In this document: one piece after another, positions 1,319 through 18,461 of the stretch | Numbering within the stretch: position 1 is the first letter of the stretch | Layout: each line of letters begins with the position of its first letter | Assembly: GCF_026248685.1 (NCBI RefSeq) | Contig: NZ_CP111041.1 | Location: forward strand, 434,001 to 498,000 | Direction: 5' to 3' | DNA from: Haladaptatus caseinilyticus | Lineage (GTDB): Archaea; Halobacteriota; Halobacteria; Halobacteriales; Haladaptataceae | Length of the DNA: 64,000 nucleotides | Program-made: the position numbers and the translations under genes | Notes under the pieces: generated by a model | The model's database searches: none | Told to the model about the DNA's origin: nothing | The model's input: only the letters and a program-made list of their open reading frames with translations

Positions 1319-1326
1319 TTGTGTAT
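1319..1326 (+). promoter_or_regulatory. TTGTGTAT element overlapping an aminotransferase start
   Basis: The octamer overlaps the ATG at 1325. A TATA-like TTTAAT lies near 1295-1300, about 27 bases before the ATG, so transcription probably begins at or next to the start codon and the octamer would cover the initiation site. The same element recurs at other promoters of this island and upstream of the IclR gene. Confidence 0.45.
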
Positions 1327-2668
1327 GGATAGGCATACCGCGGAGCCAACAGCCGAGGGTCTTCCTGGTCCGAACGCGAAAGAGTGGATCGATTTTCATA
1401 CCAAACACGCTGCACCGAGCGAATACTCACACGAATTCGTCTGGGACATCACCCGAGAAGCGGACGGACCGTTTGTGACCGATGTCGATGGGAACGTCCT
1501 GCTCGACTTCACCTGTCATATTGGTGCCGCCCCACTCGGCTACAACAACGGGAAGGTCCTCGACAAACTCCGCGAGTTCGACCTCGTGGAACCGATGAAG
1601 ATTGCGGGGCAGGACATGTACTTCGGAGCGGGTGAGACACCCGCATCCTCCGACATACCTGGTTCGAGTCACCTTATGGAAAAACTCTGTGACGTCTCAA
1701 GTCAGTACGGGATGGACACGGTGTTCCTGTCGAACTCCGGGGCAGAGGCCGTTGAGAACAGTATGAAGATTTCCTACGATAATACGCCGGAAGCGAAGTA
1801 TGGAATTGCTTTCCAGGATAGCTTCCACGGTCGGACGTTCGGAACGCTCTCGGTAACCCGCTCAAAGGAGGTGTATACCCGACATTATCCGGAACTCTCC
1901 GGAATGCGGATGGTCCCGTTCTGTGACAATCAGGACGGGAGTCCCGAGACCTGCGACTGTGGGTTCTTCGTCGGAGAGGGTTCTCAACTCCGAACCATGC
2001 TGCATCCGAAGCGCGGCCATATCAACCCGGAAGAGGTTGCGTTTATCATTCTAGAGCCGATTCAAGGAGTCGGTGGGTATCGGTTCCCCAGTACCGAGTT
2101 CATGCAGGAAGTTCAGGACGTCAAAGAGAAGTACGACATCCCGCTCGTCGTCGACGAGATACAGTCTGGTGTCGGCCGGACCGGTGAAATCTGGGCTTCG
2201 GACCACTACCCGATCGAACCGGACATCATCGCCAGTGCAAAGGCACTCCGTGTCGGTGCGACCATCTCACGTTCGGATATCTTCCCGAGCGAAAAGAACC
2301 GCCTCGGATCGACGTTCGGCGGCGGCGATATCCTCTCGTCGATGCAGGGTGTGTTCACGCTAGAAGCGATCGAAGAACACGATCTTCTCACGAACGCGAC
2401 TACCCGAGGCGAACAGGCGAAAGAGCTCCTTCGTGCCGATGCACCCGATTATATCGAGGACGTTCGTGGGAAAGGGCTCATGCTCGCCATCGAATTCGAC
2501 ACGACGGAACGCCGGGATACCGTCGTTCAAGAGGCACTCAAACGAGGGCTCCTCACGCTTGGGTGTGGGTCGAAGACGATTCGACTACTCCCACCGTTGG
2601 ACTCCACCGAACGTGAAATCGAACTCGGCGTCGGCATCTTCACCGAGGCTATCGACGCGGCACGATAA
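1325..2668 (+). CDS. Class III PLP-dependent aminotransferase
   Basis: This is a 447-residue fold-type I, class III aminotransferase (GabT / ornithine / diaminobutyrate transaminase group, which also contains archaeal broad-spectrum amino-acid racemases). Visible hallmarks are SNSGAEAVE (cofactor phosphate binding), FHGRT, the acidic VVDEIQSGVGRTG segment and the Schiff-base lysine in SAKALR (K306). A longer frame begins at a TTG at 1316, but the ATG at 1325 fits the promoter spacing better. It stands alone on the plus strand, convergent with the threonine dehydratase gene. By context it could transaminate diaminobutyrate or another omega-amino compound from the ectoine island; the substrate is not determined by sequence. 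Confidence 0.9.
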   Translation: MDRHTAEPTAEGLPGPNAKEWIDFHTKHAAPSEYSHEFVWDITREADGPFVTDVDGNVLLDFTCHIGAAPLGYNNGKVLDKLREFDLVEPMKIAGQDMYFGAGETPASSDIPGSSHLMEKLCDVSSQYGMDTVFLSNSGAEAVENSMKISYDNTPEAKYGIAFQDSFHGRTFGTLSVTRSKEVYTRHYPELSGMRMVPFCDNQDGSPETCDCGFFVGEGSQLRTMLHPKRGHINPEEVAFIILEPIQGVGGYRFPSTEFMQEVQDVKEKYDIPLVVDEIQSGVGRTGEIWASDHYPIEPDIIASAKALRVGATISRSDIFPSEKNRLGSTFGGGDILSSMQGVFTLEAIEEHDLLTNATTRGEQAKELLRADAPDYIEDVRGKGLMLAIEFDTTERRDTVVQEALKRGLLTLGCGSKTIRLLPPLDSTEREIELGVGIFTEAIDAAR

Positions 2669-2761
2669 TCCCCACTTTTCGTTTGCGTGTTTTCCCGCTG
2701 ACTCGAAACACCAGCATCGTTGCACCGGATCATACCGATACTAGGACGAACGGATATCGAC

Positions 2762-4006
2762 TCAGGCGAGCGTATGTGAAGTGACGGATAGTTCGTCGAG
2801 TGAATCGAGCGCATCGATGACCGATTGGAGATGTTCCGTACCGCTCCCTTCGATACCGACTCTGATCGGCGTCCGATTCGGGTCGTCCTGAGCGGTCCGT
2901 CGCGTTCGTTCGAGCACATCCAGTTCCGCACCTTGTGACTCCGTCGTGGTTGTTACTGCACTCACCCCGGTCGGCCAGTTATCGACGGCGATTTCGACCT
3001 CGGCGTACCGACCGAGATGCATCAGCCCGGTTCTGGTGAGTTCGCCGTGTTCGGTGAGGTTCACATTTCCACCGGAAACGACGGCAGCAACGTGTTCTCC
3101 CCTGACATCGACCGCATCCGAGAGGAGCGCAGCGACGGGTGCTGCACCGGCAGTCTCGACGACCGTTTTTGCCCGTTCTGCGAGTAACGTCAGTGCGACG
3201 GACATCTCCAGGTCGCTTACTGAGACGACGTCGTCGACGTACTCACGAATGACGGTAAACGTTTTTTCGAGGAGACGGGTATCTGCGATCCCCTCGGCAA
3301 CGGTGTCGATTTCGGATAGCTCGCGGATCTCGTCCCGTTTAAGCGACGGCTTTGCATGATACGCACCTGCTGGTTGCACACCGATGACACGGATCGATGG
3401 GTCGTGCTGCTTGAGAACGGTCGCGATTCCAGAGATGAGACCACCACCGCCGATAGAGACGACGACAGTATCGAGGGTCGGATACTGTTCTATCAGTTCC
3501 TTACCGACGGTTCCCTGTCCGGCGATAACGCCTTCGTCGTTGAATGGATGGATGAACTCCAACTCCATTTCTTCGGCGAGTTCCAACGCGTATTCGTAGG
3601 AGTGTTCGTAGATCTTCCCTTCGACGATGACCTCCGCACCATATCCGCGCGTCGCTTCGATCTTTGCTGCTGGCGTCACTTCCGGAACGACGATCGTCGT
3701 ATCGATACCCAGGATATCTCCCGCGAGTGCGACACCCTGTGCGTGATTTCCAGCACTGGAAGCGATGACGCCACGGTCTTTCGTTTGCTCCGAGAGCTGG
3801 GCCATCGTATTGTACGCCCCACGGATCTTGAACGACCCCGTCCGTTGCATGTTTTCGAGTTTGAGCCCGACCGAGGATGCGCCGCTCATATCGGCAAAGG
3901 TCGTCGAGCTGTCTACCGGCGTTCGATGAACGATGGCCTCGATTCTGTCGTGGGCTGCTGCGACCGCATCAGCGGTGACGATATCGAGTGCCTTCCGATC
4001 GCTCAT
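2762..4006 (-). CDS. ilvA: Threonine ammonia-lyase (threonine dehydratase) family, ACT-like C-terminus
   Basis: The 414-residue protein is a fold-type II PLP enzyme. The cofactor lysine lies in GSFKIRGAYN (K60), the SSAGNHAQGVA motif follows, and a glycine loop SIGGGGL binds the phosphate. The last 80 or so residues form an ACT-like regulatory segment, as in archaeal IlvA/TdcB proteins. It removes ammonia from a beta-hydroxy amino acid, classically threonine to 2-oxobutyrate. Its ATG overlaps the stop of the M20 amidohydrolase gene (ATGA), so the two are translationally coupled. In bacterial hydroxyectoine clusters a threonine-dehydratase relative (EutB) handles a hydroxylated intermediate; that role is possible here, though EutB proteins generally lack the ACT part. 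Confidence 0.88.
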   Translation of the reverse strand: MSDRKALDIVTADAVAAAHDRIEAIVHRTPVDSSTTFADMSGASSVGLKLENMQRTGSFKIRGAYNTMAQLSEQTKDRGVIASSAGNHAQGVALAGDILGIDTTIVVPEVTPAAKIEATRGYGAEVIVEGKIYEHSYEYALELAEEMELEFIHPFNDEGVIAGQGTVGKELIEQYPTLDTVVVSIGGGGLISGIATVLKQHDPSIRVIGVQPAGAYHAKPSLKRDEIRELSEIDTVAEGIADTRLLEKTFTVIREYVDDVVSVSDLEMSVALTLLAERAKTVVETAGAAPVAALLSDAVDVRGEHVAAVVSGGNVNLTEHGELTRTGLMHLGRYAEVEIAVDNWPTGVSAVTTTTESQGAELDVLERTRRTAQDDPNRTPIRVGIEGSGTEHLQSVIDALDSLDELSVTSHTLA

Positions 4007-5280
4007 ACATTCTCACTCACGGACAGCACGGATTCCGTTAGCACTTCGACGCCGATAGGGAGACTCCGCTCGTCAACGTCGAACGTCGGAGTGTGGTGGC
4101 TGGTCGGATGGTCCGTTCCGATAATGAGATACGTCGCGGAGCCACCGTCCTCTTGAACCCGCTTCATCAGGAACGTGGCATCCTCACTCGCACCGAAGTC
4201 AGCCGTCGGACGGACTTTCTCGACGCCATCGACGTTTCGAGCGACATCGGCGACGACGTTGATGAGTTCCGGGTCGCTGTCAGCACGAGGCGATTCGCTG
4301 ACGATTTCGACCTCGGAATCACAGCCGTGCATGGCTGCGGAGGTGCGAAGCGTTTGGACCAGCTCCTCTTTCATGTACTCCATGAGTGCTGTCGTTTCAC
4401 CTCGCGCTTCCCCGAGCACTGTGACCTCGTCCGCGATGACGTTGCTTGCAGTTCCACCCTCTGCTCTGCCGATGTTGACCCGTGTCATTCCATCGCTATG
4501 ACGCGGGATCGCGTACGTGTTCTGAATGGCGGTTCCGAGCGCTTGCATCGCGTTATCTCCCTCGTTGGGATTTTTACCCGCATGTGCTGACGTTCCCTCA
4601 AATGTCGATTCGACGTGACACATGGCAAGCGGGCGTTCGATGCCTGCGACGACCTCGCCAGTTGGGTGGTCTAGCCCGACATGGACCGCAAATAGGTGAT
4701 CGAGGTCGGCACAGTATTCGCTCTTCGCCATCGGATGGCCGCCACCAGAGACCTCCTCCGCAGGTTGGAAGAACACCGTGAGCGTTCCCTCGAATTCGCG
4801 GTCCTTGATGGTTTCTAGTACAGCGAGACCCCACGTCATGTGGGCATCGTGGCCACAGGCGTGCATCGACTCGTCGTTCGCCGAGCGGAAACCCTCAGCT
4901 TCGGGCAGATGTGTCTCGTCAGTGGACTCTTCGATAAACAGTGCATCAATATCAACACGGAGTCCGACCGATGGTCCCGCACCTTCGTCGAGGACGGCAA
5001 CGACGCCCGTGTTGCCACCAGCCATTTTCTCCAGCAGATCGTCGTCAGCTCCTCGTTCGCGTGCTCGCTCTAACCACTGATCGAGGCTGTTCTCTTCGGG
5101 AACAGCCATCCTATCGGCCGGATCATAGGCGTCGGGGCCGACGGCGAGTTCATCCACGCCGATTTCGCGTAACTCTTCGACGAGTCGAGACGTCGTGTAG
5201 AATTCCCGCCATGCCGGTTCAGGATGCCGATGCAGATCGCGTCGTACCGATTCCAATCGGTTCGTAATCGGGGAGGACAT
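4003..5280 (-). CDS. M20D amidohydrolase (AbgA-like)
   Basis: About 425 residues. The metal-site motif MHACGHDAH is at 139-147, and a helical insertion before GGNTGVVA is typical of the AbgA (p-aminobenzoyl-glutamate hydrolase A) branch of M20D peptidases. A dimerisation lid carries GTSAHAGK, and a distal metal-site histidine lies in SHHTPTF. Such enzymes cleave N-acyl amino acids. Upstream in-frame starts exist (ATG 5289, GTG 5304), but the ATG at 5280 sits about 25-30 bases after a TTAAG box, fitting a leaderless transcript. It shares an operator region with the divergent hydroxyacid dehydrogenase operon. A DoeB-like role, deacetylating N-acetyl-diaminobutyrate, is inference from context. 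Confidence 0.87.
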   Translation of the reverse strand: MSSPITNRLESVRRDLHRHPEPAWREFYTTSRLVEELREIGVDELAVGPDAYDPADRMAVPEENSLDQWLERARERGADDDLLEKMAGGNTGVVAVLDEGAGPSVGLRVDIDALFIEESTDETHLPEAEGFRSANDESMHACGHDAHMTWGLAVLETIKDREFEGTLTVFFQPAEEVSGGGHPMAKSEYCADLDHLFAVHVGLDHPTGEVVAGIERPLAMCHVESTFEGTSAHAGKNPNEGDNAMQALGTAIQNTYAIPRHSDGMTRVNIGRAEGGTASNVIADEVTVLGEARGETTALMEYMKEELVQTLRTSAAMHGCDSEVEIVSESPRADSDPELINVVADVARNVDGVEKVRPTADFGASEDATFLMKRVQEDGGSATYLIIGTDHPTSHHTPTFDVDERSLPIGVEVLTESVLSVSENV

Positions 5281-5312
5281 ATGAGTCATATTCACACTCC
5301 ACACACTTAACA

Positions 5313-5417: not shown

Positions 5418-6389
5418 ATGAGTGAAAACGCCGACATCGTCGTCCTCCGAGAGGGGACGGAAGGATTATCGATGGAATCGTACGCCGAAGCGCTTCGCGA
5501 TCGACTTCCCGAACAGTCAGTCGCACTCGCACGCACGCCGAAACAAGAAAGGGAACTCGTCGAAGACGCCCGCATCGTCACGGGAATCTCCCTCGACAAA
5601 GCACTCCTCGAACGTGCCACCGATCTCGAACTGTTCGCCTGCACATTCGCCGGAACTGACCACGTTCCAATGGACGAAATCGAGGCAAGCGGCGTCGCTG
5701 TCACGAACGCTGGAGGGATTCACGCCCCAGGTATCGCCGAGCAGGCGATCGGAAACATACTCGTATTCACTCGCCGACTACACGAGGGGTGGCGGCGCAA
5801 ACAACAGAGCCAGTGGCGACACTTCCAATCGGGTGAACTTACCGATAGCACGGTGACGGTGATCGGACTCGGTTCGATCGGTCAGGCAATTGTTCAGCGC
5901 CTACAGGGATTCGAGGTCGAGACGATAGGTATTCGCTACACACCTTCGAAGGGCGGCCCAACCGACGAAGTCCTCGGGTTCGAGGAGGACGACATCCATC
6001 GAGCGCTTTCCCGAAGCGACTATGTCGTCATCGCTTGCCCCCTCAACGACCTCACACGCAACCTCATCGGGAGCAAAGAGTTTGCCACGATGCCGACCAA
6101 CTGCGTCCTCGTCAATACTGCACGTGGTGGCATCGTCGATACCAACGCATTGGTTTCGGCGCTTCGATCGAACAAGATTCGTGGGGCCGCGCTCGACGTA
6201 ACCGATCCAGAACCGTTGCCTGACGACCATCCGCTGTGGGGGCTCGAAAACTGCCTCATCACCCCGCATACCGGTGGCCACACTCCGAAGCATTGGGACC
6301 GCCTCGCCGACATCGTCGCCGAAAACGTTGCTCGACTCGATGCCGGTGATACCTTAGTGAATCAGGTACGTGCACCGGAGACACGGTAA
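5418..6389 (+). CDS. D-isomer 2-hydroxyacid dehydrogenase, NAD-dependent
   Basis: This 323-residue enzyme has the Rossmann motif GLGSIG near residue 151 and the family's catalytic set: Arg in NTARGG, Glu in DPEPLP and His in TPHTGGHT. It reduces 2-oxoacids or oxidises D-2-hydroxyacids with NAD(P). Six bases separate its stop from the start of the FAD/Fe-S dehydrogenase gene, so they form an operon. The pair could move a 2-hydroxyacid through two redox routes, one to NADH and one to the respiratory chain. The exact acid (lactate, glycerate, 2-hydroxybutyrate) cannot be told. Haloarchaea carry several paralogues of this family. Confidence 0.9.
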   Translation: MSENADIVVLREGTEGLSMESYAEALRDRLPEQSVALARTPKQERELVEDARIVTGISLDKALLERATDLELFACTFAGTDHVPMDEIEASGVAVTNAGGIHAPGIAEQAIGNILVFTRRLHEGWRRKQQSQWRHFQSGELTDSTVTVIGLGSIGQAIVQRLQGFEVETIGIRYTPSKGGPTDEVLGFEEDDIHRALSRSDYVVIACPLNDLTRNLIGSKEFATMPTNCVLVNTARGGIVDTNALVSALRSNKIRGAALDVTDPEPLPDDHPLWGLENCLITPHTGGHTPKHWDRLADIVAENVARLDAGDTLVNQVRAPETR

Positions 6390-6395
6390 CCAGCA

Positions 6396-9300
6396 ATGGC
6401 GACGCAGGACTCCAAACCACTCGACGAATCAGGATCGATAGATCCGGCCAGCGACGACCGGGCGACGTACGATTACACCGGTGGGTCTCACCATCGACAG
6501 GAACTCGTCGATGACCTCGAATCGCTCATCGACGGCGACGTCAGGTTCGACGAGTACTCCCGGCAGCTCTATGCGACCGACGCTTCCGCCTACGAGGTCA
6601 CACCCGTCGGCGTCGTCTTTCCACGCTCGACGGACGACGTCGCCGCCATCGTCGACTACTGTTTCGACCACGAGATTCCCGTTCTTCCGCGGGGGGGCGG
6701 CACCAGTTTGGCTGGCCAGGCAACGAACGAAGCCGTCGTGCTCGATTTGAGCGTCTACATGAACGATCTCGTCGAGGTCGACCCTGGTGCTCGCGTAGCC
6801 GATGTACAGGCCGGTGCTGTACTTGCGGACCTCAACGCAGCACTCGCACCTCACGACCTCAAATTCGCCCCGGACCCGGCTGCCGGCGATCGGAGTACGC
6901 TGGGTGGAGCGATTGGCAATAACTCCACGGGTGCCCACTCGCTACAATACGGTAAGACGGACGCCTACGTCGAAGAGGTCGAGGTCGTTCTCGCCGACGG
7001 GACGGTTACCACGTTCGGGGAAGTGACACTCGACGAACTCCGAAATCGTGCCGCTTCCGATGGCAATATCGAGAGCCGCATTTACGATGTGCTCCGCCGT
7101 GTCGTAGACGAGGAGAGCGAAACGATTCACGACGTATATCCACAGCTGAAACGCAACGTCTCGGGGTACAACCTCGACAGGCTCGTCCAGGAAGCAGCGT
7201 CGGAGACGATCAACCTCGCTCGTGTTTTCGCTGGGAGTGAGGGAACGCTCGGCGTGGTTACGGCGGCGACCATCTCGCTCGAATCGGTTCCCGAAACGAA
7301 ATCGGTCGCGTTGCTTACGTATCACGACCTGATAGACGCGATGGCCGACGTCGATACGATCGTCCAAAATCATGATCCTGCTGCCGTTGAAGCCATCGAC
7401 GATGTTCTTCTCGATCTCGCTCGTGAGACGGAGGAGTTCGAAACAGTCGCAGCGATGCTGCCGGCGGAAACCGAAACGGCACTGCTGGTCGAGTTCTACG
7501 CGGAGGACGAGGCACACGGACGACAGCAAGTCGCGGAGCTGGTCGCCGACAGAATCCCGGATGTCGCTCTAGACGAGGCGGAGCATGAAGAAGAAGATCG
7601 CCAATACGACGAGCCAGTCCGCGCCTTTGACGTGCTAGAAGCGTACGATGAGGAGGAACGAGCGACGCTCTGGAAACTTCGGAAGAGCGGAATGCCCATT
7701 CTCCTCTCCCGGACGACCGACGCAAAGCACATCTCGTTCATCGAAGACACCGCCGTCCCGACGGAAAACCTCGCTGAATACGTTGCTGATTTCCAAGCGG
7801 TACTCGACGACCACGACACGTTCGCCTCGTTCTACGCCCACGCCGGTCCCGGATGTATGCACATGCGGCCACTCGTCGATACGAAAAGTCCAGCAGGTGT
7901 TGCCCAAATGGAGTCGATCTCCGACGCCGTGACTGACCTCGTCGTCGAGTACAACGGTTCCGTTTCAGGTGAACACGGCGATGGTCGTGCTCGAACACAG
8001 TGGAATCGGAAGCTGTACGGCGATGATGTCTGGTCGCTATTCCGCGATGTGAAGTCGGCGTTCGACCCCGACTGGATCCTCAATCCTGGACAGGTCTGTG
8101 GTGAAATAGACATGACCGAGCAGCTTCGGTTCGGTGGTAACTACGATTTCGAAGCCGAGTTCGATCCGACGCTGAATTGGGAGAACGACAATGGCTTCCA
8201 GGGAATGGTCGAACTCTGTCACGGCTGTGGTGGCTGTCGCGGCCAGCAGGAAACCACTGGTGGGGTGATGTGCCCGACCTATCGCGCTGCCGAAGAGGAA
8301 AGCGTCACAACCCGTGGTCGAGCGAACATGTTGCGACAAGCGATGAGCGGTGACCTCGATGATGACGTACTCGATATCGAGTTCATGAACGAGGTAATGG
8401 ACCTCTGTATCGGCTGCAAGGGCTGTTCCCGCGACTGTCCGAGCGAAGTCGACATGGCAAAGCTGAAAGCCGAGGTCGAACATGCCAATCATGAGCAACA
8501 CGGTGCGGGCGTTCGGGAACGGCTCTTTGCGAATATCGACACGCTCAACTCCATCGGGTCGAGGCTTGCCCCGGTTTCAAACTGGGCCGAAACGATCCCT
8601 GGGGTTCGAACCGTCCTCGAAGAGACGGTCGGCATCGCCAAAGAACGCTCACTTCCAACGTTCCATCGCGAGAGTTTCGAGGAGTGGTTCGAAGCACGGG
8701 GCGGTCCACGAGTTTCACCATCACATGCAGCGCGAAAGGTACTGTTGTTCCCCGATACGTACACGAACTACAACCACCCCGAAGCGGGGAAAGCAGCGGT
8801 TCGAGTACTCGAAGCTGCCGATGTTCACGTTCGAATCCCCGAAAACGTAACCTCGACCGGTCGTCCGGCACACTCGAAGGGCTTCCTCGACGTATCACGT
8901 GAACGCGCGGCAACGAACATCGACGCCCTCGCACCACGAGTCATCGAGGGCTGGGACGTCGTTCTCGTCGAACCATCCGACGCCGTGATGTTTCAGTCGG
9001 ATTATCTCGACCTCTTGTCGGGTCGTGACGTCGAACGGGTTGCGGCTAACACGTATGGTATACTCGAATACCTCGACCGATTCGACTTCGACCTCGAATT
9101 CGAGACCCTCACCGAATCGCTCACGTATCATGGTCATTGCCATCAAAAATCGACGAAGAAGGACCATCATGCGGCTTCGGTACTTGGGAAAGCCGGATAC
9201 GAAGTCGATGTGCTCGATTCAGGCTGCTGTGGAATGGCTGGTTCGTTCGGTTACGAGTCCGAACACTACTCAATGAGTATGGCGATCGCGAACATCCTCT

Positions 9301-9490: not shown

Positions 9491-10783
9491 CTACGGCCAG
9501 AGTCCGCGTGTTCCCTTGGCAGTCGCAACGCGATTGAGTGCCACGATGTATGCGGCATCACGCCACGTTACGCCGCGAGTTTCGACTTCGTCGCGAACGG
9601 CACTCCACGCCTTTAGCATCTCGGATTCGAGTTCGTTGTTGACACGGTCGAGTGTCCACTGTCGTCGATTGATGTCCTGTAGCCACTCGAAATACGACAC
9701 CGTCACGCCGCCCGCGTTGGCGAGGATATCGGGGATAACCGGGATATCACGCCGTTCGAAGATGGAGTCCGCGGCAAACGTGGTTGGACCGTTTGCTCCT
9801 TCGACGATGAGGTCAGCCTCGACGTCGTCGGCGTTGTTTGCCGTCAGAACGTTACCGACGGCGGCAGGAATGAGCACGTCGACGTCGAGTTCGAGCAGTT
9901 CCTCGTTGGAAAGCTGCTGGGGCGCTTCGTAGCCGGAGACCATTCCGGGACGCTCGTCGTGGGCCATCACCCCTTTCGTGTCCAGCCCACGAGGATCGAA
10001 AATCGCACCGTCGACGTCGGAGACGGCGAGGACGTCTGCCCCCCATTCGTCGAGTGCTCGAGCAGCGTTCGCGCCGACGCTTCCGTACCCCTGCACGGCA
10101 ACGGTGGTTTCGTCGAGGTTCCAGTCGTAGTAATCGATAGCTTCGCGTGTGACGATCGCGACACTCCGTCCTGGCGCCTCTTCGCGCCCATAGGAACCAC
10201 CGATGACTGGCGGTTTTCCGGTGACGACACCGGGTGTCGTCTCACCCCGCTGCATGGAGTAGGCATCCATAAACCACGCCATGGTCTGTGCATCAGTGCC
10301 CATATCCGGGGCTGGCACGTCTTGTTTTGGACCGACGACGTCCCGAAGTTCTTCGGCAAATCGGCGTGTGAGCCGCTCTTTTTCCTCGTTGCTCAGACGT
10401 TTCGGATCGACGGCGATGCCACCCTTTCCACCACCAAATGGAAGGTCCATGACGGCGCACTTCCACGTCATCCACATCGAGAGGCCGATACACTCCTCGG
10501 CGTTGACCTCGGGATGATACCGAAGCCCACCTTTATACGGTCCACGAACGTCGTCGTGTTGTGCGCGGAAGCCCGTAAACACCTCTAATTCGCCGTCATC
10601 ACGCTTGAGTGGGACGGATACGCGCTGAACTTTCGTCGGATGTTTCAACCGCTCGACGACGCCATCGTCGACATCGATGTGCGCTGCAGCACGCTTCAGT
10701 TGGCGGCGAGCCGTCATCAACGCTGATTCGCTCGATTCGTCAGTTTCCGTCGCGTCGGCGTCTTTGGACGTTAGCTGGGACAT
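9491..10783 (-). CDS. Glu/Leu/Phe/Val dehydrogenase (glutamate dehydrogenase)
   Basis: The 430-residue protein has the substrate site [11 protein letters not shown] near 81-91, the catalytic lysine in PFGGGKGG (K120), VPAPDMGT, and a Rossmann motif GYGSVG. It interconverts glutamate and 2-oxoglutarate plus ammonia. The start lies three bases after the doeA stop, so it is the last gene of the AOR-doeA-gdh operon. A transaminase pathway turns 2-oxoglutarate into glutamate at every cycle, and a co-transcribed glutamate dehydrogenase would regenerate 2-oxoglutarate and release ammonium. The pairing is therefore metabolically coherent. Confidence 0.93.
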
Positions 10784-10786
10784 GAG

Positions 10787-11965
10787 TTACGTGGAGAACA
10801 GTTCCTGCGGGAAGTCGGCCAGTACCTCGGCGCCGTTCGAGGTGACGCGGAACGTCTCGCTGAGTTCGACGCCGAAGTCGTCGAACCAGAGGCCCGGAAT
10901 CATGTGGAACGTCATATTCTTTTCGAGCACCGTCTCGTCCCCTGGACGGAGACTAGCGGTGTGCTCGCCCCAATCCGGTGGGTAGCCAAGCCCCATCGAG
11001 TAACCGATGCGTTCCTCCTTTTCGAGACCGTATTTCTGAATAACCTCACGCCATGCCTTCTCGACGCGCTCGCAAGTCACACCCGGTTCGGCGACGTCAA
11101 GCGCGGCATTCACGCCTTCGACGACGATTTCCATCCGGTCCTGCATCTCCTGTGGCGGGTCGCCCACGTACGTCGTTCGGGCGAGTGGTGAATGGTAGCG
11201 GTGCCGGCATCCGGAGAGTTCGATAATAACCGGGTCACCCTGTGCGAAGGGACGATCGGTCCACGTGAGATGAGGGGTCCCAGTATGATCGCCGGAAGGC
11301 ATGAGTGGAACGATGGAAGGGTAGTCACCACCGTACTCCTCGGTACCATCGATGAGCGCGTTGTAGATGGCACGTGCTGCTTCCGACTCGGGGACGCCCT
11401 CCTCGATCGCGTCCAGACCGGCACTCATTGCATTCTCCGAGATACGGGCAGCCTCCCGCATGTACTGGAGTTCCTGATCGGATTTCGTGACACGAACCCA
11501 GTTGACCAGCAGGGTCGTATCCTCGAATTCCGCCTCGGGGAGGTTCTGCTGCAGGCGCAAATAGGACTTTGCCGTGAAGTAGTAGGCGTCCATCTCCAGT
11601 CCGATGCGTGCATCATCGACACCGAGGTCTCGTAACACTTGCGCGAAGAAGTCCATCGGATGCAAGTCGTACGGCGACTGGACGTGGTCGTCGCTGTAGG
11701 ATCGAATGCTCTCTTCTTCCAACCACGTCGTCGCGCGTGCGCCATTAGCGTCTTGGCCGCGGCCAACCCAGACCGGCTCGTCTCGGTCCTGGGTGACGAT
11801 GACGGCTTGATGCACATAGAACGACCAGCCGTCGTAGCCAGATAGATAGTTCATGTTCGCCGGGTCGGCGATCACGAGCGCGTCGAGTTCGCGTTCACGC
11901 ATTCGCTCTTTCGTCTGCTCGATTCGTCTCTCGTATTCGCTGGCGGTAAATACTGACTGTGGCAT
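10787..11965 (-). CDS. doeA: Ectoine hydrolase DoeA (M24 creatinase/prolidase fold)
   Basis: The 392-residue protein matches the DoeA/EutD pattern over its full length. It has a segment reading DPANMNYLSGYDG then WSFYVHQ at 34-53, GGDYPSIVPLMPSG at 212-225 followed by PHLTW, and GYSMGLGYPPDWGE at 321-334 followed by SLRPGD. Near 352 is MTFHMIPGLW, then a carboxylate motif ELSET. These sequences are peculiar to ectoine hydrolases rather than to Xaa-Pro peptidases or creatinases. DoeA opens the ectoine ring to N-acetyl-2,4-diaminobutyrate in the cytoplasm. A TATA-like AATAAATAC lies 22-30 bases before the ATG. Archaeal occurrence makes it notable. Confidence 0.9.
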   Translation of the reverse strand: MPQSVFTASEYERRIEQTKERMRERELDALVIADPANMNYLSGYDGWSFYVHQAVIVTQDRDEPVWVGRGQDANGARATTWLEEESIRSYSDDHVQSPYDLHPMDFFAQVLRDLGVDDARIGLEMDAYYFTAKSYLRLQQNLPEAEFEDTTLLVNWVRVTKSDQELQYMREAARISENAMSAGLDAIEEGVPESEAARAIYNALIDGTEEYGGDYPSIVPLMPSGDHTGTPHLTWTDRPFAQGDPVIIELSGCRHRYHSPLARTTYVGDPPQEMQDRMEIVVEGVNAALDVAEPGVTCERVEKAWREVIQKYGLEKEERIGYSMGLGYPPDWGEHTASLRPGDETVLEKNMTFHMIPGLWFDDFGVELSETFRVTSNGAEVLADFPQELFST

Positions 11966-12052: not shown

Positions 12053-13714
12053 TCACTCCGTAGGGACCTGCCCATCGGGAACGACCCCGTCGTCCCAATC
12101 TCGGATTTCGTAGTACTCCTCCAACGCGTCTTCGAAGCCTGGAATCTCGTAGGGGAGCGTATCATCCGACCGGTCGAAGCCACGCTGGTTGTTGAAGTGT
12201 CGTTCGAGGGTGACGATTCGGTTTCCGACCGCGAGTAGCTCCTCGAAGTCAGCGCCGAACAGCATCTCATACCTTTCTGGGTTCATATAGTCCCGTGAAA
12301 ATTTACACACGACACCGCTATCGTTGACCGCCATCTGATTTTCCTTCTCGATGAGCCGCTGTGGTTTTCCCTCGAACCCGGTTGGGTCGTACGCGTCGTC
12401 CTCGTCGACAAGTGGGTACTCCTGTGAGTAGAACACAGCATACATGTGGTCTGCACCACGGTTCGCGACGGCATACGAGAGTCCCTGACCGTGGAGTACG
12501 CGTCCCTCGTGGGCTGCAAAGTCCATGCCTTTGACCGTCCAGTTCGGTACATCGAGATCATCGTGAATGCGGGCAATCCCTTCGGCAAGGTCGTCACCGA
12601 CACCCTCTCGGTGGGCGATCTTCTCGACCAGTTCGTGGATGAGGTCGACGTTTCCAAACTCGTCCTGTGCGGCGAGATAGGCGGCCACGGTGTTCCCCGC
12701 CGAAATCGCGTCCAATCCGTATCGGTCACACAACTCGTTCGACTTCATCACATCGACGATATCGTCAACGCCGGAGTTCGACCCAAACGCCATCGCAACC
12801 TCGAACTCGGGACCTTCCGTTTCTACGCCGCGTGTTTCGTCCTTCGTCGGAAGTTTACAGGCGAACGCACATGCAGAACAGGTTCCCTTCTTGTACTTCT
12901 TTTCTTCGACGGCGGCGCCGTTGATTCCTCCGACGCCCTCGAACTCCTGTTCGGAGAAATAATACGACGGGAGGCCGTTCAGTTCGTTCGCGAGGTCCAT
13001 CACCGCGACCGTTCCCTGTCGTTTCATAATATGGTCGTCCGTAGCTGCCTCACGGTGGATTTCCATCTGTGAGGCGGGTATATCGATGTCGAGCGCCGAG
13101 TCTCCCTCGAAAGTGAGCGCTTTCACGTTCTTCGACCCGAGCACTGCCCCGAGCCCGCCACGACCGAATGCCCGCTCTTCGGATGTCATGATGGAAGCAA
13201 AACGGACCAAATTTTCGCCGGCCGGTCCGATGACGGCGGTTTGATCGGCTCCGATCGCATGTTCGTCTTCCAAGTACGAAACAGTCTCCGGAACGGTCGC
13301 ACCGGCGAGCGCTGGCACCGGTTCGAATTCGACGCCACTATCGGAGATGTGAACAATCACTAATTCGTCGCTTTTTCCAGTGATTTCGACGGCTGCGTGA
13401 CCCGTATCTGCGAAGTTACGTGACATAAAGCCGCCCGCGTTCGACGAGACCAGCCCATCAGTGAGCGGGGAAACTGCCGTTGCATTCATTCGTCCAGTGA
13501 AACTCATCGTCGATGCCTGCATCGGACCGGTTGCGAAGAACAGCCGATTTTCCGCATCGAACGGGTCGGCGTCGAACGGAATACGCTCGTGGGCGAGCTT
13601 CGTCGCGACGCCTCGTCCGCCGATGAACGATTCGAGGATATCGTCGATGGATTCTGTCTTCGTCGTTCGTGTCCCCACGTCGATCGTGAGGTGTGGCCCC
13701 ACTGTGTGCAACAT
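12053..13714 (-). CDS. aor: Aldehyde ferredoxin oxidoreductase, tungsten-pterin type
   Basis: About 553 residues, colinear with AOR-family enzymes. It has the N-terminal FIGGRG and ATGP regions, RAFGRGGLGAVLGSKNVKA near 181-199, and a 4Fe-4S ligand set CSACAFAC (C279, C282, C286) with a fourth cysteine in SGVVCKF near 480. AORs bind a tungsto-bispterin cofactor and oxidise aldehydes to acids with ferredoxin. A 20-residue longer start at 13774 is open, but the ATG at 13714 begins the family homology and has a TATA-like box 25-31 bases upstream. It is the first gene of the operon with doeA and gdh. Oxidation of an aldehyde such as aspartate semialdehyde is the likely context role. Confidence 0.9.
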   Translation of the reverse strand: MLHTVGPHLTIDVGTRTTKTESIDDILESFIGGRGVATKLAHERIPFDADPFDAENRLFFATGPMQASTMSFTGRMNATAVSPLTDGLVSSNAGGFMSRNFADTGHAAVEITGKSDELVIVHISDSGVEFEPVPALAGATVPETVSYLEDEHAIGADQTAVIGPAGENLVRFASIMTSEERAFGRGGLGAVLGSKNVKALTFEGDSALDIDIPASQMEIHREAATDDHIMKRQGTVAVMDLANELNGLPSYYFSEQEFEGVGGINGAAVEEKKYKKGTCSACAFACKLPTKDETRGVETEGPEFEVAMAFGSNSGVDDIVDVMKSNELCDRYGLDAISAGNTVAAYLAAQDEFGNVDLIHELVEKIAHREGVGDDLAEGIARIHDDLDVPNWTVKGMDFAAHEGRVLHGQGLSYAVANRGADHMYAVFYSQEYPLVDEDDAYDPTGFEGKPQRLIEKENQMAVNDSGVVCKFSRDYMNPERYEMLFGADFEELLAVGNRIVTLERHFNNQRGFDRSDDTLPYEIPGFEDALEEYYEIRDWDDGVVPDGQVPTE

Positions 13715-13819
13715 ACACAAGACAAGGAATCCCGTGTTACTTAATTGTTCACGAAATCTGTGTATGTAAGTCATCCTATTCGTTTTCGCAGGTCAAGAGC
13801 GGTATCAATAACTGTGTAT
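13713..13819. promoter_or_regulatory. Divergent AOR / aminotransferase control region
   Basis: ATACACAA (13713-13720) overlaps the AOR start codon exactly as the element at 1319 does for its gene. CTGTGTAT follows at 13758-13765 and 13812-13819. The 12-mer at 13777-13788 (TATTCGTTTTCG) is identical to 19050-19061 upstream of the IclR gene. A TATA-like ATATATAT at about 13848-13855 serves the rightward aminotransferase gene. Confidence 0.45.
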
Positions 13820-13875: not shown

Positions 13876-15261
13876 ATGGCAGTAGGACCATCGATCGAGG
13901 AGTTACACTTCGACGAGGCACCGTCAGTCGATTCCGTTCCCGGACCGACATCGCGGGCGCTTATCGAGAAGCAACAACGTATCGACAGCAGCGCGGTCGC
14001 TTACCCCGAGGATATCCCGATCGCTTTCGAGGAGGGAAAGGGAGCGACGGTTCGTGATGTAGACGGCAACACCTTCATCGATATGTTCGCCGGTATCGGC
14101 GTGTTCAACGTCGGGCACGCGAACCCGTACGTTCTCGACGCAGTGCATGAGCAAGCGGACAAGCTCGTCCATACCGTCGACTTCCCGACAGAGGCCAGAC
14201 TCGAACTCATCGAGAAGCTCGACGAGATTGCCCCAGGTTCCCTACAAGGGAACAACAAGGTCGTCTTCGGCGGTCCGACCGGTAGCGACGCCGTTGAAGC
14301 GTCCATCAAGCTCGGCAAGTACAACACGGGTGGCGACGGACTCATCGCCTTCCGTGGCGCGTACCACGGCGCGACGAGTGGTGCAATGAGCGTCACGTCA
14401 AACACGAAGTTCAAGGAAGACTACACGCCGCTGCTCCCGGACGTCGTTCACTCGCCTTACCCGTATCCGTTTGGACAGGAAAAGGATCCACAAGAGGCAG
14501 TCGATCACGCACTCGAAGAACTACAGGCAACGCTCGAAGACCCGTACGGTGGCCTCGCGAATCCTGCGGGCATCATCGTCGAACCGATTCAAGGAGAGGG
14601 CGGCGTTATTACGCCGCCGGAAGGGTTTTTGCAGGGCGTTCGAGATCTCGCTACAGATAACGATGTGCCCCTCATCTTCGACGAGATTCAGAGCGGACTC
14701 GGTCGATCCGGTCAGTGGTGGGCGAGTGAATGGGACGACGTCACGCCCGACATCATGACTTCCGCGAAAGCCCTCGGTGGCGTCGGGTTCCCACTCTCGG
14801 CGACGATGTACGACGAATCCCTCGATACGTGGGGCTCCGGTGATCACGCTGGCACCTACCGTGGCCACGTCGTCGCGATGCGTGCTGGAACACGTGCTAT
14901 CGAATACATTCAGGAACATGACTTGCTCGCACACGCTCGTAACCTAGGCGAATACATCCGGACCCGGTTGAAAGAAGCCGGTGAAGGAAATCCCCATTTA
15001 GGGGAGGTCCGAGGAAAGGGACTGTTCATCGGGGCGGAGTTCGTCGATGGTGATGGGAACCCCGACGGGGAGATGGCCGACGCGATCCAGGATTACTGTT
15101 TCGAGCACGGTGTCCTCGTGTGGAAGGCGGGCCGGTACGGCAACATCGTACGACTGCTCCCACCGCTCGTGCTTACCGAGGATCTGGCCGAAACGGCGCT
15201 CGACATCATCACTGAGGCCGTCGAAACGACGACCGCCGCAAAGCAAGACATCCAAAGATAG
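13876..15261 (+). CDS. Class III aminotransferase, diaminobutyrate-transaminase-like
   Basis: The 461-residue enzyme has [31 protein letters not shown], the acidic [13 protein letters not shown] motif and the PLP lysine in SAKALGG (K298). The [10 protein letters not shown] form and overall layout resemble 2,4-diaminobutyrate transaminases (EctB/Dat/DoeD group). These move the gamma-amino group to 2-oxoglutarate, giving aspartate semialdehyde and glutamate. It is transcribed divergently from AOR-doeA-gdh, with RidA ten bases downstream. It is the better of the two candidates in this island for the DoeD step; the substrate is inferred. Confidence 0.88.
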
Positions 15262-15271
15262 CAGTTTCACA

Positions 15272-15655
15272 ATGACTTCGGAACCCATCGTCACAGACGA
15301 GGCACCGCGCAATGACAATCCGTACTCGCAGGGCGTCCGCGCCGACGATACGCTCTATGTATCCGGCTATGGTCCAGTCGACCCCGAAACGGGAGAGGAC
15401 GTCGACGGCGACGTGCAAGCTGAAACCGAACAAGTACTGGAGAACATTGCAGCGACCGTCGAGAAAGCGGGCGGGTCGCTCGACGATGTCGTCAAGATAA
15501 CTGTCTATCTGACCGACTTGGACGACTATGACCGTGTCAACGAGGCCTACGGTAACCAGTTCACCGGTACGCCACCGGCCCGTGTCTGCGTGGAGGTCTC
15601 GCGTCTCCCCGACGATGTCCATATCGAAATGGACGCCATCGCACATCTCGGGTGA
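15272..15655 (+). CDS. ridA: RidA family imine/enamine deaminase
   Basis: The 127-residue product has the RidA (YjgF/YER057c/UK114) pattern: NPYSQGV near residue 15, YVSGYGP, a long helix with QTE-like spacing, and PPARVCVEVSRLP with the conserved active-site arginine. RidA hydrolyses reactive 2-aminoacrylate-type imines released by PLP enzymes. It is ten bases downstream of the aminotransferase and in the same island as the threonine dehydratase, an enzyme that produces such intermediates. The open frame extends upstream through the aminotransferase gene, but the ATG at 15272 is the only sensible start. Confidence 0.93.
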   Translation: MTSEPIVTDEAPRNDNPYSQGVRADDTLYVSGYGPVDPETGEDVDGDVQAETEQVLENIAATVEKAGGSLDDVVKITVYLTDLDDYDRVNEAYGNQFTGTPPARVCVEVSRLPDDVHIEMDAIAHLG

Positions 15656-15760: not shown

Positions 15761-16414
15761 TTAGTTGCTTGATTCCTCGAACCGTTGATTCCGTCGGTCG
15801 GTTGCTCTGTTTACGTTCCGGACGAACTCTGCCATCTGATCTTTCATCTCGGAACGCATCGATGTCGCCGAAAAACCCCCCGATTCGGTTAGAAGCCGAA
15901 CGAACGCGCGAAGATCTTCGTCAGTGATTTCGTCGAAGCTTCCGTTCTCTAACTGTTCGGTGACCTCGTCGATATCGATCTGTCCGACGGGATCTACGTT
16001 GAAGTCGACCGTTACCATCCGGTAGTCCGACCCAGCGAGGCTCTGCTCGGACCGGCTTACCCCCTTTCCAAGCATATCCTTGAACGGAACGTGATAGCCC
16101 ATCGTTGCGAGATGGAGGAAGCCGAGCATATCGATTATACCGTTCGTGTAGTCGTCACGGTTCTCCGATTCGGGGTTGAAGACGTTTTTGCGGTCACGAT
16201 CTTCGAGGTGCTCGAAGAGGATAGTAAAGTCGAGGATCGCGTTGCGGAGTCGCTGTCGAATCCGGTTTCGCTTCTGTTTTTTCGAGTGTTCCGTGTAGTC
16301 GGTTTTTCGGCCAAGGAGGAACTCACGATCACTTGGCGTCAGGATCCCCCGTCCCCGGTCAGCAGAAAGCGCCAATCGATCGGGGGCATCGGCCTCATCG
16401 TTCTCGTTGACCAT
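15761..16414 (-). CDS. Conserved haloarchaeal protein of unknown function
   Basis: The 217-residue protein is acidic and probably soluble. Its first half has LSADRGRGILTPSDREFLLG then a basic, arginine-rich helix (about 40-60) leading into RNAILDFTILFEHL. I recognise the RGRGILTPSDREFL opening as common to a family restricted to haloarchaea, with no assigned function. The middle holds a hydrophobic helix (IIDMLGFLHLATMG); the C-terminus is charged. No catalytic motif is visible. It stands alone on the minus strand between RidA and the BCCT transporter. A 12-base palindrome lies 43 bases upstream of its start. Confidence 0.75.
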   Translation of the reverse strand: MVNENDEADAPDRLALSADRGRGILTPSDREFLLGRKTDYTEHSKKQKRNRIRQRLRNAILDFTILFEHLEDRDRKNVFNPESENRDDYTNGIIDMLGFLHLATMGYHVPFKDMLGKGVSRSEQSLAGSDYRMVTVDFNVDPVGQIDIDEVTEQLENGSFDEITDEDLRAFVRLLTESGGFSATSMRSEMKDQMAEFVRNVNRATDRRNQRFEESSN

Positions 16415-16823
16415 GCATTGTCTATGCGTATCGTATCAAGTAAGTATTACGACTGACAACAATTGTTGGCTGTTTCTTGTTCGGTGATGGTTTCTTCTAC
16501 TATGGTACCCGAACAGGACTACAGCATCGTTCGACAGTAATTATCTATCCACGTTGATAAATAAACAGTGATCGTGAACTATGTCTTTAACAACCATAAC
16601 ATTTATCCAGATGAGTTGTGATGGATGAAGCGTGTCGTGACCCTGGTTATACAGTGTCATACATAGTGGACGTTCGAACCATGAAATCGCAACGCAACGA
16701 AGATTACTATCCGACCGAATGTGTGTCGAATGGCAGTCGAAACACACGCGAGGGACAGGACAAATCGACTCGGCGTCAGAACGAACGAAATCATAGTATT
16801 AGTCACATGACGGAGCGTGACAT
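16415..16823. other. Intergenic region between divergent genes, with a palindrome
   Basis: No convincing gene is seen. CAACAATTGTTG, a perfect 12-base palindrome, lies at 16457-16468, upstream of the unknown gene starting at 16414. AT-rich patches near 16550-16600 could carry promoter elements for the BCCT transporter gene. A 69-codon frame at 16618-16827 has no family features and atypical composition. Confidence 0.5.
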
Positions 16824-18461
16824 ATGAGTCGCTCAAACGAACAAAGTCCGGTTGAAGAGTTCATCGACGAGATAGAACCGATCGTATTCGCGTTTGGTGC
16901 TGGCATCACCCTCCTGTTCGTCGCCCTGTTCGCACTGAATCCAAAGACGGCAGCGAACCTCGTTTCGTCCGCGACTGACTTCGTCCTCGGACATTTCAAT
17001 TGGGCATTCATGCTGGTGATGTTGGTGTTCGTCGGCTTCCTGGCATTCCTCATTTTCGGCCCCTGGGGACGGATCAAGCTCGGCGATGGAGCCCCCGAGT
17101 TCAGCTACTTCTCGTATTTTACGATGATCTATTCGGCTGGGCTCGCCGCAGGTATCGTTTTTTGGGGACCGTCCGAGGCACTCCTCCATTATTCGAGTGT
17201 GCCACCACTGTACGACGTTGCATCGAAGTCACAGGCCGCGATTCCCATCGCTGTGCAGTATTCTATCTTCCACTGGGCGATCATCCAATGGTCTTGTTTT
17301 ACGGTGATGGGCCTCGGTATCGGATATTTCGTCCACGCTCACGGTGCTCCCCTTCGTGTGTCCGCCGTTCTGACACCGTTTGTGGGCGCGGACAACGTCG
17401 ACAACCTGGCCGGAACGATCATCGATATTCTCGCCGTGTTCGCGACGCTTGGTGGGGTCGCGACATCGTTGGGATTCATCGGGAGTCAATTTCTCACCGG
17501 ACTCGAGTTCCAATGGGGCATTCAACTCGGTGACGCTGGCACGATAACAGTCATTACCGGGATGACGGCGTTGTTCACGGTATCGCTCGTGCTCGGAGTG
17601 GATAAGGGGATTCGCCGTCTATCGAACTTCAATATGGTCCTGTTCGGCGGGCTCATGATATCGACCCTCGTATTCGGACCGACGTTCCGCGTACTCGAAC
17701 TCAGTACGCAGGCAATCGGTGGCCTGTTGGGCGATTTCTTCAAGATGAGCCTCTTTTTGGATTACACCAATGGTGGGTCATGGTCGAACGCCTGGACTGT
17801 CTTTTACTGGTTGTGGCCACTCGCGTGGTCGCCGTTTGCGGGCCTGTTTATCGCACGCATTTCCCGTGGTCGAAGCGTCCGCGAAGTCGCGTTCACTGGT
17901 ATCGTCGCGACGTCACTTGCGACGATTCCTTGGTTCGCCATCGTGGGTGGTACAGCAACGGTTTTCCAACATAACGGCGTCGCCAACATTCTCGACCCTG
18001 TCAATAACTACGGTGAAGCAGTTTCAGGGTACGTCCTCTTCGGAGCCATCGAGTTCATGGGTCTACCGATTGGAACCCTTCTGTTGTTTGGCTTCCTGGT
18101 TTTGGTAACTACTTTCTTCGTGACGTCGGCCGATTCGTCAACGCTCGCAGTCTCCATAATGACGACCGGTGGGAAAGAAGAACCGTCGGCGATCAACCGG
18201 ATCTTTTGGGGAGTCTTACAAGGCGCTGTTGCGTCGATCCTGATGGTCATCGGTGGCGTGGATGCGCTCCAATCTGCCGCGATCATCACCGGAGGTCCAT
18301 TCGCGATAGTGTGTCTCATAGCCGTTATCGGATTGACGAAGACGTTCCGGGAGGAAGGCGGAAACGTGCTTCTTAGAGAGGAAACTGTTCTCTTCGGAAA
18401 GCCAAGCACGGAAAAGCAAACCAACTCATCAACGGTCGCCGTTGGTGCCGAAGACGATTAA
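16824..18461 (+). CDS. BCCT family osmolyte transporter
   Basis: The 545-residue protein has about twelve membrane segments and the layout of betaine/carnitine/choline transporters. MIYSAGLAAGIVFWGPSEAL holds the glycine-rich helix 3 region, and the BCCT signature lies at about 323-336 (AWTVFYWLWPLAWSPF). The signature deviates: the usual WWxxW stretch reads WPLAW. FIARISRGRSVREV follows, as in typical members. Most BCCT carriers use Na+ or H+ to import betaine, ectoine, choline or carnitine. Its place next to the doeA island suggests it imports the pathway's substrate. Confidence 0.93.
   Translation: MSRSNEQSPVEEFIDEIEPIVFAFGAGITLLFVALFALNPKTAANLVSSATDFVLGHFNWAFMLVMLVFVGFLAFLIFGPWGRIKLGDGAPEFSYFSYFTMIYSAGLAAGIVFWGPSEALLHYSSVPPLYDVASKSQAAIPIAVQYSIFHWAIIQWSCFTVMGLGIGYFVHAHGAPLRVSAVLTPFVGADNVDNLAGTIIDILAVFATLGGVATSLGFIGSQFLTGLEFQWGIQLGDAGTITVITGMTALFTVSLVLGVDKGIRRLSNFNMVLFGGLMISTLVFGPTFRVLELSTQAIGGLLGDFFKMSLFLDYTNGGSWSNAWTVFYWLWPLAWSPFAGLFIARISRGRSVREVAFTGIVATSLATIPWFAIVGGTATVFQHNGVANILDPVNNYGEAVSGYVLFGAIEFMGLPIGTLLLFGFLVLVTTFFVTSADSSTLAVSIMTTGGKEEPSAINRIFWGVLQGAVASILMVIGGVDALQSAAIITGGPFAIVCLIAVIGLTKTFREEGGNVLLREETVLFGKPSTEKQTNSSTVAVGAEDD

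Follow-up and report, generated by a model that had tools for sequence, protein, structure and literature searches.

The 64,000-nucleotide window analysed here (Haladaptatus caseinilyticus, NZ_CP111041.1, positions 434,001 to 498,000) belongs to contig C6, 557 kb long, in a haloarchaeal genome of 4.82 Mb, called the host genome below. From position 1316 to 20038 it holds 13 genes that run from a class-III aminotransferase (AT1) to an IclR-family regulator and are centred on a homologue of the ectoine hydrolase DoeA, also named EutD. On balance, I consider it probable that these genes form a laterally mobile haloarchaeal cluster for the uptake and catabolism of ectoine and hydroxyectoine. Gene content, the clade of the DoeA homologue, residue conservation, co-occurrence across genomes and searches that found neither DoeB nor ectoine synthase are direct results, and the reactions assigned below are all deduced from them. 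The genes of the cluster are, in order:

1316..2668, + strand: AT1, class-III aminotransferase (PF00202, 260 bits; an in-frame ATG at 1325 is a possible start)
2762..4006, - strand: TDH, pyridoxal phosphate (PLP) enzyme of the threonine-ammonia-lyase family, candidate EutB counterpart (TIGR01127, 397.8 bits, cut-off 378.75)
4003..5304, - strand: M20D (Abg-like) amidohydrolase, candidate N-acetyl-(hydroxy)diaminobutyrate deacetylase (TIGR01891, 258 bits, cut-off 153.75)
5418..6389, + strand: D2HDH, NAD(P)-type D-2-hydroxyacid dehydrogenase (PF02826, 187 bits; NF041369, 245 of 400)
6396..9437, + strand: YdiJ/GlpC-like fused FAD oxidase and 4Fe-4S protein, candidate D-2-hydroxyacid dehydrogenase for D-malate or D-2-hydroxyglutarate (PF02913, PF01565, PF02754, Fer4)
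9491..10783, - strand: GdhB, glutamate dehydrogenase (NF041398, 784.1 bits, above the cut-off of 620)
10787..11965, - strand: ectoine hydrolase homologue of the DoeA/EutD clade (TIGR02993, 493.9 bits, cut-off 613; 6TWK, E 7e-121)
12053..13774, - strand: aldehyde ferredoxin oxidoreductase (AOR), candidate for semialdehyde oxidation (PF01314, 266 bits; PF02730, 217 bits)
13876..15261, + strand: AT2, class-III aminotransferase, candidate diaminobutyrate (DABA) transaminase (PF00202, 338 bits)
15272..15655, + strand: RidA, enamine/imine deaminase (PF01042, 127.8 bits, cut-off 27.3)
15761..16414, - strand: U217, conserved 217-residue protein (no Pfam or NCBIfam match)
16824..18461, + strand: BCCT carrier, candidate for (hydroxy)ectoine uptake (PF02028, 490.4 bits, above the gathering score of 27)
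19271..20038, + strand: IclR-family regulator, candidate regulator of the cluster (PF01614 and PF09339)

Several neighbours are closely spaced: TDH and M20D overlap by 4 nt, and gaps of 6, 3 and 10 nt separate D2HDH from the YdiJ-like gene, DoeA from GdhB, and AT2 from RidA. Every gene named in a preliminary description of this DNA (AT1, M20D, GdhB, DoeA, AOR, AT2, RidA and BCCT) is indeed present. TDH, D2HDH, the YdiJ-like gene and U217 went unmentioned there, although they lie within the range that it gave (1325-18461), and that range ends too early, for DNA similarity with another genome (G398, below) extends the cluster to IclR at 19271-20038.

The DoeA homologue

By far the best family for the window DoeA is TIGR02993 (493.9 bits, residues 4-390), followed by DoeA_2 (251 bits) and the archaeal Xaa-Pro dipeptidase PepQ (NF040821), for which it scores 109 bits against a cut-off of 630. 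The closest solved structure is 6TWK (407 bits, E 7e-121), the DoeA of H. elongata; the best creatinase chain reaches 70 bits. In a tree of 162 rows, built quickly under LG+G4 with SH-aLRT as the only support, 71 haloarchaeal rows (69 plus the two DoeA copies of the host genome) form a main clade with support of 100, and a bacterial DoeA clade of 83 rows (support 88) adjoins it. Below these clades come three deep paralogues from haloarchaea and two rows from Bacillota, and the outgroup, three M24 peptidases of the host genome, splits from the DoeA rows with support of 100. Three short rows (L079, L189 and L108) were removed beforehand, and some haloarchaeal records enter under two row names, L067 and L162 being one such pair, which means that rows are not independent genomes.

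At 51 positions, including W47, E249, H258 and H354, the residue is at least 97% conserved both in the 69 haloarchaeal main-clade rows and in 85 bacterial rows, and E249 and P260 are invariant in all of these (69/69 and 85/85) as well as in the three deep paralogues. HMMER alignments with 6TWK and with Pyrococcus prolidase 1PV9 place E, P, L, I and S of the window DoeA at five positions that are presumably the metal ligands of prolidase; the comparison rests on these two alignments, the M24 rows being poorly aligned at the corresponding columns of the row alignment. The window DoeA is best described as a predicted metal-free member of the M24 fold whose active site matches that of bacterial DoeA.

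One rival reading is that the gene codes for a peptidase of the M24 family or a creatinase and belongs to an island for general amino-acid salvage that serves no dedicated pathway: the fold is that of M24 (PF00557), and genes for aminotransferases and glutamate dehydrogenase are commonplace. However, the tree and the residue analysis largely refute this already, the PepQ score is far below its cut-off and the prolidase ligands are replaced, DoeA outscores the top creatinase chain by 407 bits to 70, and orthologues of TDH and AT1 were seen only with DoeA over 391 genomes. Such a salvage island is highly improbable. The preliminary description had named a phylogenetic position within Xaa-Pro peptidases or creatinases as the result that would overturn its call of DoeA; the homologue instead groups with bacterial DoeA, apart from the M24 peptidases, and I reject a peptidase or creatinase identity on tree, residues and scores, creatinase itself being absent from the tree.

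The three deep haloarchaeal paralogues (L075, L076 and L078; 55-58% identical) lack W47, D331 and G333 and lie in a context of IclR, DAO-like FAD oxidase and BCCT or ABC genes. They probably act on another substrate.

The gene set around DoeA in Halobacteria

DoeA, called at E<=1e-80, was found in 144 of 391 Halobacteria genomes and in 41 of the 86 genera that these represent. Genome-wide profiling covered DoeA, AT1, TDH and D2HDH, and for these and DoeB the counts are based on the 4 or 5 top candidates in each genome; AT2, M20D, RidA, GdhB and BCCT were counted in 60 haloarchaeal DoeA neighbourhoods, each spanning about 20 kb and in 20 cases a further 13 kb. M20D is present in 51 of the 60 neighbourhoods, D2HDH in 50, TDH in 43, AT1 in 40, BCCT in 35, AT2 in 34, U217 in 32, RidA in 24, GdhB and the YdiJ-like gene in 20 each, and AOR and a cluster-type aldehyde dehydrogenase (ALDH) in 7 each. 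A locus of Haloferax massiliensis (L163) holds DoeA, GdhB, the YdiJ-like gene, D2HDH, M20D, TDH and AT1, and Haloferax volcanii has a DoeA homologue. The cluster is not a chance assembly, since DoeA is surrounded by this gene set again and again in Halobacteria, and the conservation of the neighbourhood that the preliminary description had proposed to check is borne out.

TDH, at a cut fixed beforehand (E<=1e-125), occurs in 118 of the 391 genomes, all of them DoeA-positive (118/118), and in 0 of the 247 DoeA-negative ones. AT1, at 70% identity or more, occurs in 124 genomes (124/124 DoeA-positive, 0/247 DoeA-negative). The AT1 cut, like that for D2HDH (E<=1e-150), was picked after the tables had been inspected, because AT1-like proteins, paralogues included, are found in 321 of 391 genomes at a looser preset cut (E<=1e-150); D2HDH-like proteins likewise reach 259 of 391 at E<=1e-115. 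At E<=1e-205, AT1 is unmatched in 13 DoeA-positive genomes, and at least six of these (G030, G065, G071, G120, G130 and G278) carry an AT1 of 63-67% identity in the cluster. The cluster is a real unit, and AT1 and TDH are the most faithful partners among those tested.

D2HDH fits this picture less well. At its cut it occurs in 149 of 391 genomes, 14 of them DoeA-negative, and I therefore reject it as a strict partner of DoeA. It is also missing from 10 of the 60 DoeA neighbourhoods, 9 of which lack M20D too, and both counts weigh against the pathway proposed here. The ten comprise second DoeA copies, deep paralogues, DoeA genes that stand alone (for example L057) and one contig-end case, L023, in which D2HDH, TDH and AT1 sit at the opposite end of the contig.

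The window DoeA clusters with genomes of another haloarchaeal family (91% identical to L062); the other DoeA copy of the host is not its neighbour in the tree and falls in with the host's own genus. Furthermore, window positions 1285-19948 are 75-84% similar in DNA to genome G398, with small gaps, and the similarity ends at both sides of this 18.7-kb block, beyond which lie DcuC (26-1216) on the left and MscS (20642 on) on the right. The right border is less sure, with about 2.9 kb of the other contig remaining beyond the match. IclR falls within the block, and an IclR gene stands at the matching cluster end in L062, L063 and L064. Since the block is common to another haloarchaeal family, the genes from AT1 to IclR were probably transferred laterally as a block.

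The second host DoeA (G000:C5:351780-352943; L015, L021) is 79% identical to the window copy and is adjoined by a BCCT gene and a U217 paralogue (72%). A TDH-like gene (40%) lies about 11 kb away, and M20D, D2HDH and AT1 were not found in the 20 kb read around it. U217 itself, encoded between RidA and BCCT in the window, has a basic N-terminal half and only two paralogues in the genome; its AlphaFold model is poor (pLDDT 45), so structure gave no identity. To the right of the cluster, window positions 20642-25477 hold the MscS channel, a DAO-type FAD oxidase, a glutamate-1-semialdehyde-aminotransferase-like enzyme and an open reading frame that by eye resembles arginine deiminase/DDAH, perhaps another amino-acid catabolic set.

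Steps of the predicted ectoine route

Judging from the sequences, the ectoine core of the pathway is likely. The BCCT carrier would import ectoine or hydroxyectoine, DoeA would open the ring to give N-acetyl-(hydroxy)diaminobutyrate, and M20D would strip the acetyl group. DABA would then be converted to aspartate semialdehyde by one of the class-III aminotransferases, AT2 being the likeliest, while GdhB would recycle the amino acceptor, and AOR, or an ordinary ALDH in relatives, would oxidise the semialdehyde to aspartate. No hit to ectoine synthase (PF06339) was found in the host genome, and three of three Bacillota controls were positive; as far as this family tells, the host would be a consumer of ectoine and not a producer.

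DoeB (TIGR02994) was found in none of the 391 Halobacteria at E<=1e-40, and the best score in the host genome is 101.8 of 402.7 bits, with three of three rhizobial controls above the cut-off. The window M20D, whose closest solved structure is 3io1, an aminobenzoyl-glutamate utilization protein, scores 107.7 bits against a cut-off of 550 for the DoeB2 M20 deacetylase model (NF038260). The comparison used 70 bacterial DoeA loci, what was left of the 80 best among at least 588 relatives once 10 haloarchaeal ones had been set aside; many of the bacterial contigs are short. An M20 enzyme occurs in 49 of the 70 and DoeB in 6, never both. Outside Pseudomonadota, 48 of 60 loci have the M20 enzyme and none has DoeB, so that M20 in DoeB's stead is widespread; within Pseudomonadota, 1 locus of 10 has the M20 enzyme. 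Thus the preliminary description, which saw M20D as standing in for DoeB, was right about both genes, but the exchange is not specially archaeal, and I reject that notion on the 48 bacterial loci.

Other enzymes also fall short of the specific models. AT2 scores 297-410 bits against diaminobutyrate-transaminase models, below every cut-off (335.6 of 401.6 for TIGR00709; 410.1 of 671 for NF005393), and the BCCT carrier stays below the NCBIfam models betaine_BCCT (414.7 of 650) and TIGR00842 (397.1 of 407.55). In five neighbourhoods (L024, L027, L028, L029 and L045) ABC transporter genes (an ATPase and two permeases) lie near DoeA, and BCCT was not found there. AOR and the cluster-type ALDH never occur together in the 60 neighbourhoods, which fits alternatives for one step, but most neighbourhoods have neither. 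The two are not strictly exclusive, because in L072 and L084 a more distant ALDH-family gene, 34% identical to that of Priestia, is found 3.4 kb away from AOR, which counts against a simple exchange. The preliminary description saw AOR in place of the usual aspartate-semialdehyde dehydrogenase; with 7 of 60 loci, I reject AOR as the defining oddity of the cluster. I found no description of AOR in connection with ectoine and aspartate semialdehyde in haloarchaea in the open-licence literature.

The proteobacterial eutABCDE/doeABCD systems (H. elongata, S. meliloti, R. pomeroyi) share with the haloarchaeal cluster a central DoeA homologue, deacetylation, transamination, aldehyde oxidation, and an uptake gene and regulator nearby. 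The haloarchaeal cluster differs in having M20D for DoeB, AOR or another ALDH, no EutC-type hit in its neighbourhoods, no EutB orthologue (TDH is 37% identical to Leisingera EutB), BCCT or ABC genes and not TRAP/Ehu, and IclR and not EnuR; D2HDH, the YdiJ-like protein, RidA and GdhB are additions. Identity of TDH, M20D, AT1 and AT2 to the counterparts compared, from Proteobacteria or Bacillota, is only 26-37%. This distance agrees with the independent archaeal assembly suggested earlier, but the set is not wholly independent, as some Bacillota too have RidA and a 2-hydroxyacid dehydrogenase next to DoeA. Halobacterial ectoine clusters as such are already in print: passages of PMC13188858 (April 2026) report more than 100 archaeal EutD hits and putative clusters with aminopeptidase, aminotransferase and BCCT genes that are conserved between genera, the same phenomenon as in the window, and call for experiments. 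The words hydroxyacid and RidA are absent from the main text of that paper, and those passages name no archaeal TDH, D2HDH, YdiJ-like protein, RidA, GdhB, AOR or lateral block and give no counts of co-occurrence; figures S10 and S11 of the paper may show some of these genes.

Several points weigh against ectoine as the substrate. The activity of the cluster is predicted, from sequence, and the TIGR02993 cut-off of 613 is missed by the window DoeA and by all hits in the 391 Halobacteria. In the 162-row tree, haloarchaeal DoeA does not fall within the proteobacterial clade that studies of the pathway have drawn on, and the tree itself is a quick one for which the program warned of long branches meeting. 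Finally, M20D, AT1, AT2 and BCCT score under every substrate-specific model. The missed cut-off, the position in the tree and the unmatched models, together with the deep paralogues L075, L076 and L078, which show that the fold diversifies in haloarchaea, would also be expected if the substrate of the haloarchaeal DoeA clade, and with it of the cluster, were not ectoine but some other cyclic amidine or an N-acyl amino acid. I consider this improbable, as the 51 conserved positions join haloarchaeal main-clade and bacterial rows, the neighbours provide a deacetylase, a transaminase and aldehyde oxidation, the very steps that ectoine requires, and an Oceanobacillus DoeA cluster has an EutB above one of two cut-offs.

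A possible hydroxyectoine branch

TDH, RidA, D2HDH and the YdiJ-like protein fit nowhere in the classical ectoine route. TDH passes TIGR01127 but reaches only 247.4 and 221.8 bits with the EutB models NF005680 and TIGR02991 (cut-off 413). It is unlikely to be the housekeeping isoleucine enzyme, given its co-occurrence with DoeA and the separate paralogues in the host genome (43% for the best and 40%). The YdiJ-like protein scores 561.9 bits against a cut-off of 1350 for the YdiJ model (NF049975). In all 20 neighbourhoods that have it, TDH is present; among D2HDH-bearing loci it is found in 20 of 43 with TDH versus 0 of 7 without (Fisher p 0.03).

Threonine-ammonia-lyase chemistry releases an enamine and then a 2-oxo acid, and on 3-hydroxy-DABA it would yield 4-amino-2-oxobutyrate. 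In a hydroxyectoine branch, which I regard as doubtful and less sure than the ectoine core, TDH would dehydrate 3-hydroxy-DABA, RidA would hydrolyse the enamine to 4-amino-2-oxobutyrate, and D2HDH would reduce this to 4-amino-2-hydroxybutyrate. AT1 with AOR or ALDH would convert the latter to malate (the D form), which the YdiJ-like enzyme would oxidise to oxaloacetate. A branch through 4-amino-2-hydroxybutyrate or D-malate was not found described in the open-licence literature; PMC5759318, where hydroxyectoine does come up, models the metabolism of a producer of ectoine.

EutB and EutC may fill this place in bacteria, according to passages of PMC8739950 in which the exact activities of EutABC and the 5-hydroxyectoine steps are uncertain even there; an older proposal, in parts of PMC5924519, has EutB and EutC act on the ring, and the same parts mention a hydroxyacid dehydrogenase of undefined role in some proteobacterial clusters. 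The 70 bacterial DoeA loci contain EutC in 25 cases, RidA in 9 and a 2-hydroxyacid dehydrogenase in 5, the latter two never with EutC, and no EutC-type hit was found in the haloarchaeal loci L021-L100. All five dehydrogenase loci belong to Lentibacillus or Oceanobacillus, and four of the five also share RidA, SSADH and an aminotransferase. From this pattern I infer that the 2-hydroxyacid dehydrogenase may stand in for EutC.

Like the haloarchaeal cluster, the Bacillota loci of Priestia (L101) and Oceanobacillus (L144) combine DoeA with an M20 amidohydrolase, a EutB-type dehydratase and an ALDH, yet their enzymes are distant from the haloarchaeal ones (28% for M20, 25-29% for the 2-hydroxyacid dehydrogenase). 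L144 holds DoeA, a GhrB-like dehydrogenase, SSADH, RidA, M20, EutB, a D-amino-acid transaminase, an alanine racemase and a tartrate dehydrogenase, the last three closing the cluster (L144:17751-20893). Its EutB passes NF005680 (422.1 of 413) and its tartrate dehydrogenase TIGR02089 (481.6 of 470.4). The tartrate dehydrogenase family also accepts D-malate. The Priestia type differs in having EutC, a cystathionine-gamma-synthase homologue and homoserine dehydrogenase. In L101, a Priestia megaterium plasmid, and its relatives, the cystathionine-gamma-synthase homologue takes the place of the transaminase beside homoserine dehydrogenase and ALDH, with PdxS (a PLP synthase subunit) in Priestia, and the downstream chemistry of these clusters is likely to be different.

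Put together, haloarchaea, and some Bacillota by parallel recruitment, may degrade 5-hydroxyectoine by way of TDH/EutB, RidA and a 2-hydroxyacid dehydrogenase that replaces EutC, with D-malate as the product. D-malate would then enter metabolism through the YdiJ-like flavoprotein in haloarchaea and through the tartrate/D-malate dehydrogenase in Oceanobacillus. I offer this route tentatively and think it rather unlikely to hold in full; its D-malate end is bolder than the replacement of EutC. The D2HGDH enzymes of P. stutzeri and P. aeruginosa do oxidise D-malate, according to passages of PMC9504171 and PMC10034468.

A number of observations argue against this route. TDH is missing from 7 of the 50 D2HDH-bearing neighbourhoods and has no match elsewhere in those genomes, and because of these loci and of the 14 DoeA-negative genomes with close homologues, D2HDH is possibly untied to the TDH reaction. 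The opposition of EutC and dehydrogenase comes from five loci in two genera, four of them with EutB, and many of the bacterial contigs are short. In L144, EutB falls short of TIGR02991 (382.7 of 413.35), the isopropylmalate dehydrogenase model NF002898 is narrowly reached by the tartrate dehydrogenase too (393.3 of 393), and the D-amino-acid transaminase and alanine racemase make a D-amino acid intermediate possible instead. Furthermore, the YdiJ proteins of E. coli and Pantoea were inactive on D-malate, as passages of PMC9504171 report.

Alternatively, the ectoine core may hold while hydroxy-DABA is returned to DABA, through TDH and RidA followed by amination of 4-amino-2-oxobutyrate by GdhB or an aminotransferase. 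D2HDH and the YdiJ-like protein would in that case be a SerA/YdiJ-like pair that couples oxidation to the reduction of 2-oxoglutarate and recovers D-2-hydroxyglutarate. The characterised YdiJ is strictly specific for D-2-hydroxyglutarate, which SerA can form from 2-ketoglutarate (passages of PMC9504171), and D2HDH matches the phosphoglycerate dehydrogenase model with 165.9 bits (cut-off 454). The spacing of the genes, D2HDH and YdiJ-like 6 nt apart and GdhB 3 nt after DoeA, is in keeping with this, and DABA was detected in Ruegeria grown on hydroxyectoine, as stated in part of PMC8739950. However, the window YdiJ-like protein is far under the YdiJ equivalog cut-off, GdhB is present in only 20 of 60 neighbourhoods, and the bacterial 2-hydroxyacid dehydrogenases, seen only in EutC-less clusters (5 loci), are left unexplained. 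I regard this return to DABA as a possibility to be taken seriously, though not a probable one.

KCl is generally held to be the means by which most haloarchaea balance salt, and the host genome has no hit to ectoine synthase, while the bacteria that live around haloarchaea make ectoines. If the uptake and catabolism of ectoine and hydroxyectoine proposed here is correct, a transferable cluster found in more than a third of the sampled Halobacteria (144/391) would make archaea consumers of bacterial osmolytes in brines. TDH and AT1, which at the cuts used occur only alongside DoeA, and D2HDH, found in 50 of the 60 DoeA neighbourhoods, would be concrete enzyme candidates for 5-hydroxyectoine breakdown, and Haloferax is one of the genera with such genes in which genetics is feasible.

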